Shown one piece after another: positions 45,401 to 51,400 of a stretch of DNA of 64,000 nucleotides. The notes under the pieces are model-generated. The model made no database searches. It had not been told where the DNA came from and saw only the letters and a list, made by a program, of their open reading frames with translations. The DNA is taken from contig CM040748.1 in assembly GCA_022829145.1 (NCBI GenBank), forward strand, positions 5,040,501 through 5,104,500, given 5' to 3'. This stretch comes from Albula goreensis. Lineage: Eukaryota; Chordata; Actinopteri; Albuliformes; Albulidae. Made by a program: the position numbers and the translations under genes. Within the stretch, counting starts at the first letter, position 1; every line of letters starts with the position of its first letter.

Positions 45401-48400
45401 ATTTCCCACTGAGAGTTCCATTTTTAATTTCCTGTCTTTTGTTTCAGATTCAGTGTCTGCATTTTTTAATTAAACCACGCAAAAACCGAACTGCAACATC
45501 ACATATCATTTATTAAACAGGATAGGAACATTCATAAACTCAATGAACATTAAATAAGGATTTTCTGATGCCAGTGCTTGCATCCCTACACCAGCTGCAT
45601 TGTAAACAATCATCCCTTTTAGTGTCACTGCGGCTTAGAAGAGTAGACCTTTAGGTGTGTCATAGGTTTAGCAGCCTATTGTGGTCACATGACTAGAGGG
45701 AAGGCACACCCTTTCTGTGAAGACAGCACTTGAACAGTACCAATAGGTCAAACAGAAAAAAAGTGCGTTGAATGCATAGAAACTCAATTTGGCACATTAT
45801 CTACGTTACTGAGAAGGATATGTTCTGACATAAGCTGAAGTAATCTTCTGCACCTTAATCTTTCATTTTCAAAGACTGGATATTTAATTTTCTGTCTTGC
45901 ACCACATGAAAAGCTTAGCAACAAAAAGAGTTCCCTGATTCCCCTTCTTTCCCTCCATATGGAAAGTTAACACAATGTTAAAATACGAAAAAAAACAGTG
46001 TAGTGTAATGGTTGTAGTCGGCTGTTAATCATCAAACAAGCTTATCTCACAAGCAAGCATGTTCTGCTGCCTCAGCCATGAAATCGCTCTCTCCTTTCTG
46101 ACCAGACTCCGTTCTCTTTTCTTGCTTTTTTGTGTAAGAACATGCTGATCTTGGTATATTTGCAAATTTCTTGCAAACTTAATTTGTTTCATTTCATGTC
46201 CATATTTCACTAATATCTTATGAAAACAGCTTTCCCCTCTGGACAAACAACCCTTTCACAGTGTATGAATTTAATGGAAACATTACCCACAATGCACCAA
46301 TATGTAAAAGCTCTCATGTTGCATTTTCTGCCAGAGATTAACTGTCCCCCAGAGTCACAACTGACCTCATTAAGAGCTCTGTGTGCATGAAGCCAATCAT
46401 CTAATTAGTCGTGCATGATCCTTAGATAAAAAGCAATGATGAAGAAAGGAAAAAACATTGCATTTACATGTGAAAGAAATGGCACATGGTGCTCTCCCTG
46501 CTGACTAATGACGGTCTTCTGCCTAACTGAATTTATGACGCAACACATCAGTCTTCTGCATTTACAGCTTTCAACAAGATCGGTGGTTACAGCAACCTGG
46601 AGGGGGTGTACCAGAAAGCCATCCCGTCGAAGATCATCCCCAACACCACGTGCCACCTGCCCCGCGCAGACGCCATGCACCTGTTTCGTGACCCTGTGGT
46701 GGGAGACCTTCCCTGGCCCGGAATGACCTTGGGCCTCACCATCCTGGCAACGTGGTACTGGTGCACTGACCAGGCAAGAGAGTCTTCCCTAGTTCCCAAA
46801 TTCTGCATAAGAGTCTTTGGTGGTGGGGGGGGTGTGGAAGGAGGGGGTTGTTGTTTTTGCAGGATTTTAGAAGTACCCGTTTAGACAAGGTCAACTCAAG
46901 TGGAGAGACCTCCATGAATCCCACAGCAGTTATGCAATGCACACAGACGGCTCACATTTCAGACGGCCACTCTTTTCCATTACAAGTCAAGGTTGATGTG
47001 GGAAAAAGCGGTGGCCTAGAAAGACACCCCTCTGAAAGGAGGGAAATTCGAGACAAACCTTAAATCTTAAGGTTAAAAATAACCATCTGTGAATCCGTAA
47101 AGAAAGAGTAAATACCCCATCACGGCAAAAGAGAGAGAGCTTCGGGCCTCTTTCCTGCCGTACCCAACATAATCAGGGTTATGTGTTGGGAAAGTCATGC
47201 AGAAAGCGGGGGTTGGGGGGCGGCCTGTCGCTCACTTGTTCCCCAGCTGTGCCTTTTTCTGTATGGGGTTCCCTGAGATTTTCCCCTTCAGGTGTTTGAA
47301 CTGGGAGACCTTGGTGATGGGGATGCCGAGGGGAGTCCGGCTGTCCCCCTGAAAGACGGCGTGGGGCCTGTGCGGTGAGCTATGGCGGCTGGGGGAACGG
47401 CCAGTCCGCGAGTTAGCCAGCTGCATCTGGGCCAGTCTGCTGGGCGAGCAGCGCCCGCTGGCTGCCTTGTCCTGGTTGAACAGCTTGCCCTGCCAGTACT
47501 TGTGACCCCCAATAACGTGGCCCGCTGCCTTAGCGGGTCGGTGGTAGCTCCCCGGCTTGGCGATCACGACCTTGGCTGTTCCGAGGTTGCCACGGCTACT
47601 GACCGGGTGGGCTCTGGAGGAGGTCTGATACAGCTGTGTAAACAAGAGAGGAGCACTTGTTAAAATCTTGGACAGTCTTTGCATGAGCGTGAGTGAAAGA
47701 AAGGGCAGGAACATGAACAAGAGAGTTAACACATGAGGAAAACTGACTTCCACTGTGGAATACGTTTTGTGGAACACTGAAACTGCTGCAAAATATGAAA
47801 AGATGAAAAAAACAAAAACAACAAATGGTAGGTGTGTGCCTACACTGAATGCCTTGTATTGTGCATGCCGCTTGGATTTCGCGACTGGGCGTCTTTTTTC
47901 ACAGGTGATCGTCCAAAGGTCCCTGTCAGCCAAGAACCTCAGCCACGCCAAGGGAGCCTCCATCTTGGCCAGCTATCTGAAGATGCTGCCCATGATCTTC
48001 ATCATCCTGCCTGGGATGATCAGCAGAGCTCTTTACCCAGGTAAGCCTGTGAGCACCTTAGCGGAGCTCTTTACCCAGGTAAGCCTGTGAGCACCTTAGC
48101 GGACCTCTTTACCCAGGTAAGCCTGTGAGCACCTTAGCGGAGCTCTTTACCCAGGTAAGCCTGTGAGCACCTTAGTGGAGCTCTTTACCCAGGTAAGCCT
48201 GTGAGTACCTTAGCGGAGCTCTTTACCCAGGTAAGCCTGTGAGCACCTTAGCGGACCTCTTTACCCAGGTAAGCCTGTGAGCACCTTAGTGGAGCTCTTT
48301 ACCCAGGTAAGCCTGTGAGCACCTTAGCAGAGCTCTTTACCCAGGTAAGCCTGTGAGCACCTTAGCGGAGCTCTTTACCCAGGTAAGCCTGTGAGCACCT

Positions 48401-51400
48401 TAGCAGAGCTCTTTACCCAGGTAAGCCTGTGAGCACCTTAGCGGAGCTCTGTACCCAGGTAAGCCTGTGAGCACCTTAGCGGAGCTCTGTACCCAGGTAA
48501 GCCTGTGAGCACCTTAGTGGAGTCCTTTACCCAGGTAAGCCTGTGAGCACCTTAGCGGAGCTCTGTACCCAGGTAAGCCTGTGAGCACCTTAGTGGAGTC
48601 CTTTACCCAGGTAAGCCTGTGAGCACCTTAGCGGACCTCTTTACCCAGGTAAGCCTGTGAGCACCTTAGCGGAGCTCTGTACCCAGGTAAGCCTGTGAGC
48701 ACCTTAGTGGAGTCCTTTACCCAGGTAAGCCTGTGAGCACCTTAGCGGAGCTCTGTACCCAGGTAAGCCTGTGAGCACCTTAGTGGAGCTCTTTACCCAG
48801 GTAAGCCTGTGAGCACCTTAGCGGAGCTCTTTACCCAGGTAAGCCTGTGAGCACCTTAGTGGAGTCCTTTACCCAGGTAAGCCTGTGAGCACCTTAGCGG
48901 AGCTCTTTACCCAGGTAAGCCTGTGAGCACCTTAGCGGAGCTCTTTACCCAGGTAAGCCTGTGAGCACCTTAGTGGACCTCTTTACCCAGGTAAGCCTGT
49001 GAGCACCTTAGCGGACCTCTTTACCCAGGTAAGCCTGTGAGCACCTTAGCGGAGCTCTTTACCCAGGTAAGCCTGTGAGTACTTTAGCGGACCTCTTTAC
49101 CCAGGTAAGCCTGTGAGCACCTTAGTGGAGCTCTTTACCCAGGTAAGCCTGTGAGCACCTTAGCGGAGCTCTTTACCCAGGTAAGCCTGTGAGCACCTTA
49201 GCAGAGCTCTTTACCCAGGTAAGCCTGTGAGCACCTTAGTGGAGCTCTTTACCCAGGTAAGCCTGTGAGCACCTTAGTGGAGTCCTTTACCCAGGTAAGC
49301 CTGTGAGCACCTTAGCGGAGCTCTTTACCCAGGTAAGCCTGTGAGCACCTTAGCGGAGCTCTTTACCCAGGTAAGCCTGTGAGCACCTTAGCGGAGCTCT
49401 TTAACCAGGTAAGCCTGTGAGCACCTTAGTGGAGCTCTTTACCCAGGTAAGCCTGTGAGCACCTTAGCGGAGCTCTTTACCCAGGTAAGCCTGTGAGCAC
49501 CTTAGTGGAGTCCTTTACCCAGGTAAGCCTGTGAGCACCTTAGTGGAGTCCTTTACCCAGGTAAGCCTGTGAGCACCTTAGCGGAGCTCTTTACCCAGGT
49601 AAGCCTGTGAGCACCTTAGTGGAGTCCTTTACCCAGGTAAGCCTGTGAGCACCTTAGCGGAGCTCTTTACCCAGGTAAGCCTGTGAGCACCTTAGCGGAG
49701 CTCTTTACCCAGGTAAGCCTGTGAGCACTTTAGCAGAGCTCTTTACCCAGGTAAGCCTGTGAGCACCTTAGCGGAGCTCTTTACCCAGGTAAGCCTGTGA
49801 GCACCTTAGGGGAGCTCTTTACCCAGGTAATCCTGTGAGCACCTTAGCGGAGCTCTTTACCCAGGTAAGCCTGTGAGCACCTTAGCGGAGCTCTTTACCC
49901 AGGTAATCCTGTGAGCACCTTAGCGGAGCTCTTTACCCAGGTAAGCCTGTGAGCACCTTAGCGGAGCTCTGTACCCAGGTAAGCCTGTGAGCACCTTATC
50001 ACCATCATATCACCGCAAACCAGTTATGTGTTTACTCTTTGCAACTTTGCATTGTTCATTGTTTGCTTCATGACAGATGCCTATCTGGAAACCGTAACTA
50101 GGATGTAACAGTAACACCAACAATAACATCAACTGTTGACATTTTTGACATCAATAGCTTCGCTAAGAGAACAGCTGATGCTGAAGAATGACGTACAGGA
50201 TCTGGAAGCTATTGCGGTTTATTTTGCCCAGTAAAAATGGGCAAAACACAAACAAACAAATAAATGTGATATATCTGACCAGTTACAAACGATATCACTT
50301 CTGAGGCAGGTACGTGGAGAGTTTGGCCAGTTCGGCCACACTGCGATGTCCGAATTCAATGTGGCAGCTTGTTATGTTCTCAAACACACTGTTTCGTTTG
50401 TAAGGCACTGCCGAAGTTCGTCTCCGCAGTGAGTTCACTGTCACCTTAAGGCTCAGCGCACCTCTCCTGTAAGGCACCGGAGTATCTCCCTGTTTACAGC
50501 CCTGAAGCCAGAGTCAGGGGGGAGGGGCCCACCTTGGCTGATAGAGACGGCTGCTTTTGATTAGGGTAAACAAGCTCTGGCATGCAAAAACCTGGGTGTT
50601 TCTGAACCCATATTCCTATCTGTTTTAGTGACTAACTGATGGGCCGCTGGCCAGATTTGAATCCTGCTGATTATGCAATAAGTACGGTTGTCATATGTTT
50701 CTTGTTTTGCTGACCCTAAAGGATAATGCAAGATGTGCCTTCATCATAACTGTATCTATACTGTGACCGGACAAATGTGTCTCCCTTGATAGCTCACATG
50801 TGCTGTGGTCCATTGAAAATCAGCAAAAAACAAAGCTGTTAGACTGAATCCTGAAAGCCTCTGCAAATTTACAACCCTTAATCAGCATAGTGCTGCACCT
50901 TTAATGCAACCTCAAGAGCCATCCCATGCTACCTTTAAACTCACAGTGCTTTAATCTGGTTGAATCTTTTTTTTGTTTTTCTTCCTTTTGTTTTCTTTTC
51001 TTAAGAGCGCATAATAAAAATTTGTGTTTAAGAATGTAACGTAGGTATGTTTTTGTAATTGATCTAATAGGTAGCTATCATTTTTATGTTGCTTGGGCAT
51101 GTCAGTTATGTCATACTCCAGTTTTGGAATATTACAGTACATTGGACCACAATCAAAGATCTAAGACCTCAAGCGTGAGTTATCTGTTCTAAGAGCACAA
51201 ACGGTATCATGGGTTATCAAGGAGTTTCTGTTTTTGCATTAGCTCATACCTTCTTTCCATTGCCATAATGCATCCTTATCTGGCTCCGCTGTAGCGCCGC
51301 CAGTGCTGCCAGCACTCGCTGGCTGTCCTCCTCCTTCTGCTGCAGCTGCTGCTTGCTCTCTGGCCGCAAGTCCAGCATGGACTGGGAAAACCTGGCCATG

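Follow-up and report, generated by a model that had tools for sequence, protein, structure and literature searches.

The window analysed here, a stretch of 64,000 nucleotides from the genome of the fish Albula goreensis (contig C8, GenBank CM040748.1, positions 5,040,501–5,104,500; the assembly comprises 932 Mb in 208 contigs), contains the gene slc5a10, whose exon 9 runs directly into a minisatellite in which the end of the exon and the 5′ splice site (donor) that follows it are repeated 52 times. The account that we favour, with some reserve, is that this array is a mostly tolerated passenger, born at the boundary between exon 9 and intron 9, of which the first donor would be used and the products of the remaining donors would be removed by decay.

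The end of slc5a10 exon 9 and its donor form a 52-unit array

The elements concerned are listed below, in window coordinates.

47905–48040, plus strand: slc5a10 exon 9, 136 nt, ending in the 19-nt exonic half of unit 1 (SGLT1/SGLT2 homology through GMISRALYP)
48022–49998, plus strand: minisatellite of 52 copies of 38 bp, each unit composed of 19 exonic and 19 intronic nt and bearing one 5′ splice site
48041–48046, plus strand: first donor, GTAAGC, the sole frame-keeper among the 52 (computed reading frames)
49979–49984, plus strand: last donor, GTAAGC, in unit 52 (unit-by-unit reading)
48041–60818, plus strand: intron 9, 12,778 nt, from the exon 9 donor to the exon 10 acceptor
60819–60926, plus strand: slc5a10 exon 10, which starts ACTCTGTAG; the phase-1 join yields P-D-S-V-G-C
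61078–61228, plus strand: slc5a10 exon 11; the junction preceding it would make the stops of extended isoforms prone to decay

Tandem Repeats Finder reported the minisatellite as 52.0 copies with 94% matches and 0% indels (score 3562). The array starts 19 nt upstream of the exon 9 donor, so that unit 1 is the exon's own end. When the array was read unit by unit, AG/GT was found in 52 of 52 units; the GTs span from 48041 to 49979, a distance of 1938 nt or 51 × 38, with those at 48497 and 49257 in register, in agreement with what a previous reading of the sequence alone (hereafter the sequence-only reading) had proposed. That reading had also held that the donor was amplified jointly with the exon end, which the 19 + 19 nt composition of the unit bears out, and that GTAAGC is present in each unit. 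This last claim was slightly overstated: every unit does carry a strong donor, but it is CAGGTAAGC in 50 units and CAGGTAATC in units 48 and 50, which lie towards the 3′-end of the array. The 52 units fall into 13 distinct types whose order is non-periodic. Chance is excluded as the source of such an array.

To place the array within the gene, tblastn was used with a human SGLT1 sequence as the query. Homologous open slc5a10 segments flank the array on both sides and occur in order, exon 9 being the ninth of them (with weak matches for two upstream segments, and a possible extra 5′ exon); the gene looks intact as judged from these segments. Exon 9 is flanked by the acceptor TTTTTTCACAG and the donor CAG/GTAAGC. 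The alignment with the SGLT1 and SGLT2 chains extends through GMISRALYP, encoded by the final codons ahead of this donor; the homology ends there and is picked up again in exon 10, 12.8 kb on and far past the array. The possibility that the tandem copies had created intron 9 was considered and discarded, because the homology resumes so far beyond them; the repeats would only have enlarged an existing intron. The copy in exon 9 reads AGCAGA where most units of the array read AGCGGA. The arginine encoded by the exon is that of the aligned SGLT chains, and the exon copy is therefore likely to be the ancestral one. A 114-base query made from the unit matched no second place in the 932-Mb genome, in a search that scores best candidates only.

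These features would be explained if the exon 9/intron 9 boundary had been tandemly duplicated and the duplication had later grown into a minisatellite by slippage or unequal exchange. As the last 19 bases of the exon and the first 19 of the intron make up the unit, with each expansion one further full 5′ splice site would come to lie downstream of the first.

Only the first donor keeps the reading frame open

The join of exon 9 to exon 10 is of phase 1, and computation of the reading frames showed that donor 1, alone among the 52, allows an uninterrupted frame through exon 11. Use of donor 2, which adds one unit, gives ACT CTG TAG, a stop at the start of exon 10, while each of the remaining 50 donors leads to a TGA within the repeat; the predictions made earlier on these three points were thus reproduced. 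All stops of the extended forms lie at least 102 nt before the exon 10/11 junction, so the 51 extended isoforms should be subject to nonsense-mediated decay.

The first of many equal donors is predicted to be used

Computed pairing to the 5′-end of U1 gave –11.0 kcal/mol for 50 of the 52 units and –8.1 for the two variant units. The earlier assertion was that all copies are near-consensus U1 sites; the computed values are identical in all but the two weaker variants. Downstream of the array, none of the 655 GT sites of intron 9 reaches –11.0 kcal/mol.

With donors of equal strength, the outcome may depend on how the exon is recognised. Passages of a study of competing donors (PMC9225289) describe the upstream donor as favoured in strict exon-definition events and the downstream one in strict intron-definition events, and report five exon-defined minigenes, each with two identical CAG/guaagu donors, in which the upstream one was used exclusively. 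Exon 9 lies between an intron of 1,131 nt (intron 8, given the by-eye bounds of exon 8) and one of 12,778 nt, and should therefore be chosen by exon definition; under the upstream-donor rule, the donor of unit 1 is then predicted to win. Exon 9 would be recognised across the exon, and the donor nearest its acceptor would be the one used. Units past the fourth would, in addition, lengthen exon 9 beyond 250 nt. The sequence-only reading had concluded that the cell must single out one donor from 52 close rivals or put up with frequent nonsense isoforms. That dilemma is not supported: the competition is anatomically real, but exon definition and the behaviour of the two-donor minigenes indicate that it is probably resolved by position. 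Mostly correct mRNA would be expected, with a small leak in which an occasional mRNA spliced at a later donor acquires an early stop and is cleared by nonsense-mediated decay. The cost to slc5a10 output would be at most modest, and dependent on copy number.

The variation within the array is consistent with this. Across the 52 units, the donor columns showed no significant excess conservation that would point to selection on the inner donors (1 of 9 donor columns variable versus 9 of the other 29; p = 0.40), as would be expected of inner donors with little or no use; the exonic half had 7 variable columns out of 19 and the intronic half 3 out of 19 (p = 0.27). RNA structure was examined as a factor that might favour donor 1 and was rejected: the first 190 nt fold like shuffled sequences (z = –0.81), and donor 1 is computed to be less open than most 9-mers of the array.

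Other donor arrays in the genome

The genome was scanned for places where three copies of a donor or acceptor word lie 10–40 bases apart, the reversed word serving as the control; the hits overlap, and their numbers are therefore not numbers of arrays. Triples of the donor word CAGGTAAG gave 710 hits versus 215 for the reversed word (3.3-fold; 1.42-fold for single words), and those of CAGGTGAG gave 3,165 versus 225 (14.1-fold; 3.49-fold for single words). The acceptor word TTTGCAGG gave 202 versus 12 (16.8-fold; 4.66-fold for single words). CAGGTGAG and TTTGCAGG thus surpass their reversed controls far more as close triples than as single words. The share of single words found in triples was 2.06% for CAGGTAAG and 4.95% for CAGGTGAG, versus 0.40% for TTTGCAGG. 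The notion that donor words are special seeds of arrays was not retained, since the acceptor word exceeds its control as much or more.

The first 100 CAGGTAAG hits correspond to 21 places and the first 100 CAGGTGAG hits to 20 places, the latter on contig C1. The repeat finder called 20 of the former and 18 of the latter tandem (L042, L065 and L070 were not called). An apparent coding exon ends at the first donor in 7 of the 21 CAGGTAAG places and in 5 of the 20 CAGGTGAG places, exon ends being judged by eye and unblinded. Ten of the 38 tandem arrays therefore start at a coding exon end (12 of the 41 places if the non-tandem L042 and L070 are included), homology supporting seven of the ten and the eye alone the other three (L059, L067 and L068). 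Five CAGGTGAG places (L060, L061, L063, L073 and L079), whose windows start inside the array or show earlier units, were counted as misses, and L074, which looked coding, was omitted from the exon-end count. For comparison, the same by-eye reading was applied to 20 single CAGGTAAG words, of which four seem to mark the end of a coding exon, with a Pfam match for three of the four. The exon-end rate of CAGGTAAG arrays (6/20) was similar to that of the single words (4/20; p = 0.72, or p = 0.48 with 7 of 21 places), although moderate purging or enrichment could go unnoticed in samples of this size. There is thus no visible purging of arrays at exon ends, nor visible enrichment, and they look tolerated.

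Among the places with three TTTGCAGG words taken from the first 100 hits, 0 of 18 begin an exon (judged by eye, up to ~350 nt onward and with no repeat-finder check), while ~2–3 of 20 single TTTGCAGG words do (by eye; only frames with a GTRAG donor were displayed). An asymmetry between donor and acceptor arrays could be calculated from these figures (p = 0.02 against 10/38, or 0.01 against 12/41), but about two exon starts would be expected among 18 places; the difference was not relied on and the asymmetry is not established.

The arrays that start at exon ends are the following; L141 comes from a further set of CAGGTAAGC arrays, of which 10 were present among the first 100 hits and five were read, and is not one of the 38.

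L041: array at the end of a C2H2 zinc finger exon (Pfam); extra donors would give early stops
L048: array at the end of an fn3 domain exon (Pfam match below its own cut-off); extra donors would give early stops (direct reading)
L053: array at the end of an mTERF-like exon (Pfam match below its own cut-off); extra donors would give early stops
L052: array at the end of a SATB1-like exon (homology, 7.7e-33)
L069: array at the end of a GHMP kinase exon (homology match)
L075: array at the end of a MIZ zinc finger exon (homology match)
L050, G000:C3:2706400-2712600, reverse strand: kctd1-like array of 41-bp units (KCTD1 match, 28/28 residues)
L059, G000:C4:46967800-46974300, 3077-3455: array with a 27-bp unit, exon end by eye
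L067 and L068: arrays at coding exon ends, by eye
L141: array at the end of a mitochondrial-carrier exon (8.1e-6), the one of the five read that starts at an exon end

By their sequence, then, similar arrays begin at other coding exon ends of this genome, and the slc5a10 array is not exceptional in kind. The consequences of using an extra donor differ among these loci. At the mTERF-like locus the first donor joins the following exon in frame. The frame of the SATB1-like exon stays open with one extra unit and meets a stop with each of the next five; here the repeat finder starts the array 8 nt past the exon's own donor, which is thus an imperfect first unit. In L059 all 13 perfect donors tested keep the frame and leave it open, and the use of extra donors would insert 9-residue repeats instead of stops. 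The kctd1-like array (L050) has donors at 3023, 3064, 3105 and 3146, followed by a mutated fifth at 3187; their phases are 1, 0, 2, 1 and 0, respectively, and the first unit of the array is one base short (TCAG versus TCCAG). The exon that follows (L138) starts A-ATC-GGC and needs phase 2 (AG/), so that donor 1 is out of phase; only the third donor, which adds 27 residues, is both in phase and open. The missing base may reflect a fault of the assembly; alternatively, a downstream donor may be the one needed here.

Three further observations concern places without a donor array in the strict sense. In L042, presumably TTC38-like, and in L070 (TRPM5, 1.3e-25), two further strong donor words lie beyond a coding exon end at a spacing of 30–38 nt and are not called tandem; they are perhaps decayed donor duplications, and in L042 the extra donors lead to early stops. 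In L104 (G000:C1:58081430-58081830, reverse strand), a coding-looking frame ends CGCCAG/GTAGGA beside a short array (by eye), the donor adjoining the repeat and not forming part of the unit.

A broader proposal would be that donors are recurrent seeds of minisatellites in this fish, that many coding exons end in arrays of their own donor, kept because exon-centred recognition takes the first copy, and that in some genes, the kctd1-like locus being a candidate, a downstream copy has become needed. We put this forward tentatively and rather doubt it in this full form: it is weakened because the acceptor word shows a similar excess over its control and because two of the 12 places counted are not tandem. 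A literature search, with most subscription papers outside its reach, found no description of a genome-wide class of donor minisatellites. Such a possible class is a better lead than the single array.

Alternative explanations for the slc5a10 array

Several points weigh against a passenger array served by its first donor. The unpaired probability of donor 1 lies in the lowest 4.5% of the 9-mers of the array, according to computed folding; use of the first donor is a prediction, and the minigene rule on which it draws covers two donors, not 52; the by-eye samples from which tolerance was judged were small, as stated. A 2001 paper reportedly ties, by its title, the variable-number tandem repeat (VNTR) of human CBS to reduced activity, so that such arrays need not be silent. 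Finally, the downstream donor is the preferred one where introns are strictly the units defined, according to passages of PMC9225289. An array that is not silent might work as a copy-number rheostat, a sizeable, copy-number-dependent share of the transcripts being spliced through donors 2–52 and degraded, which would set slc5a10 output. The early stops that all 51 extra donors produce and the equal U1 pairing of 50 of the 52 would suit this mechanism, for which passages on human CBS offer a precedent, with a unit across exon 13/intron 13 in 16–21 copies (PMC2630376; PMC1395315). However, exon definition favours the upstream donor (PMC9225289), and the presence of comparable arrays in unrelated genes speaks for tolerance in general; we therefore consider a rheostat unlikely, if worth keeping in mind. 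The array might instead correct itself, donor 1 being spliced to the AG of a later unit, or the extra units being excised, so as to restore the exact exon 9–10 join. AG precedes GT in 51 of the 51 later units, and a step from donor 1 to any of them would drop whole units and keep a donor; published work describes introns spanning AGGT tandem repeats (PMC4974935) and recursive sites at distal exon ends (PMC10156609). Recursive sites have a pyrimidine tract followed by YAG/GT; the units read CCCAG/GTAAG or similar, with a weak tract. Against self-correction, the AGs of the array look like weak acceptors, with 7–9 pyrimidines out of 15 versus 9–13 in 11 slc5a10 acceptors, a background value (638 other AGs of the intron average 7.7), and the exon junction complex is reported to block re-splicing in Drosophila (PMC8184009). 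Self-repair is thus an attractive but weak idea, to which we attach little credence.

Two other explanations seem more improbable still. A row of U1 sites could have been kept by selection as a platform that reinforces exon 9 or guards the long intron against premature polyadenylation. It is true that 52 strong sites open a 12.8-kb intron in which no downstream GT is as strong; nevertheless, the donor columns lack significant excess conservation, the first 190 nt show no unusual folding, and one donor normally suffices, which leaves this explanation with a very low probability. It is about as hard to believe that the copy number was inflated or collapsed during assembly: tandem arrays are error-prone and a single assembly was seen, but the 13 unit types stand in non-periodic order with no indels, and 208 contigs for 932 Mb suggest that long reads were used. 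A largely tolerated array with a dominant first donor thus remains the reading that we prefer.

Neighbouring features

46568–46773, plus strand: slc5a10 exon 8, bounds set by eye, with a GC donor, CAG/GCAAGA
51618–52736, minus strand: open frame that contains FAM83-family coding sequence (SACK1 domain; Pfam PF07894, 3.8e-13, over the first 150 residues)

The exon that directly precedes the array-bearing one thus has an apparent GC donor (46774–46775). The antisense FAM83-family gene within intron 9 is one that we take by synteny to be FAM83G, which lies beside SLC5A10 in mammals. A minus-strand open reading frame at 47235–47972 may be the last exon of this gene, which would then cover at least 47235–52736; if so, the array would sit inside introns of both genes.

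Comparison with known systems

The slc5a10 array and the shorter series in other genes constitute natural tests of the choice between identical donors. They bear on the exon-centric proximity rule, on the cost of extra donors, on copy-number rheostats such as that suggested for human CBS, and on intron growth and the birth of new introns from AGGT repeats.

The closest counterpart is the 31-bp VNTR of human CBS at the exon 13/intron 13 boundary, which passages of PMC2630376 describe as c.1444_1467+7(16_21), a notation that corresponds to 24 exonic plus 7 intronic nt in 16–21 copies, with units always of 31 bp that differ by single bases. In both cases a short unit made of the end of an exon and its donor is repeated many times, each copy holding both. 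In slc5a10, too, the unit spans the donor (19 + 19 nt) and the first unit is a true coding exon end with an in-frame join; on its sequence, the array is a new and extreme member of the CBS-like, donor-spanning exon–intron VNTRs. The two differ in that the CBS repeat has 16–21 copies of 31 bp and varies between people, whereas slc5a10 has 52 of 38 bp, taken from one assembly. The tuning of slc5a10 output by copy number, put forward in the sequence-only reading, finds a suggested human parallel in this VNTR.

Minisatellite repeats have also been described, in passages of PMC2812944, at exon–intron boundaries of human segmental-duplication genes, with units of ~30 bp on average and possible changes in splicing. 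Those repeats average ~4 copies and are tied to novel introns; in slc5a10, an old intron gained 51 donors. Intron gain by AGGT tandem duplication is, according to passages of PMC4974935, an established model (the Rogers model, with ATP2A1 and the 24-bp repeats of fission yeast), and the slc5a10 units resemble it in holding AG/GT, so that the stretch from one copy to the next could serve as an intron. On its acceptor side, however, the slc5a10 unit is weak, and no new intron need be assumed. With the two-donor minigenes of PMC9225289, as far as its passages describe them, the array shares a competition of identical strong donors for one acceptor across the exon; there, two donors were placed by design, whereas in slc5a10 there are 52 in nature.

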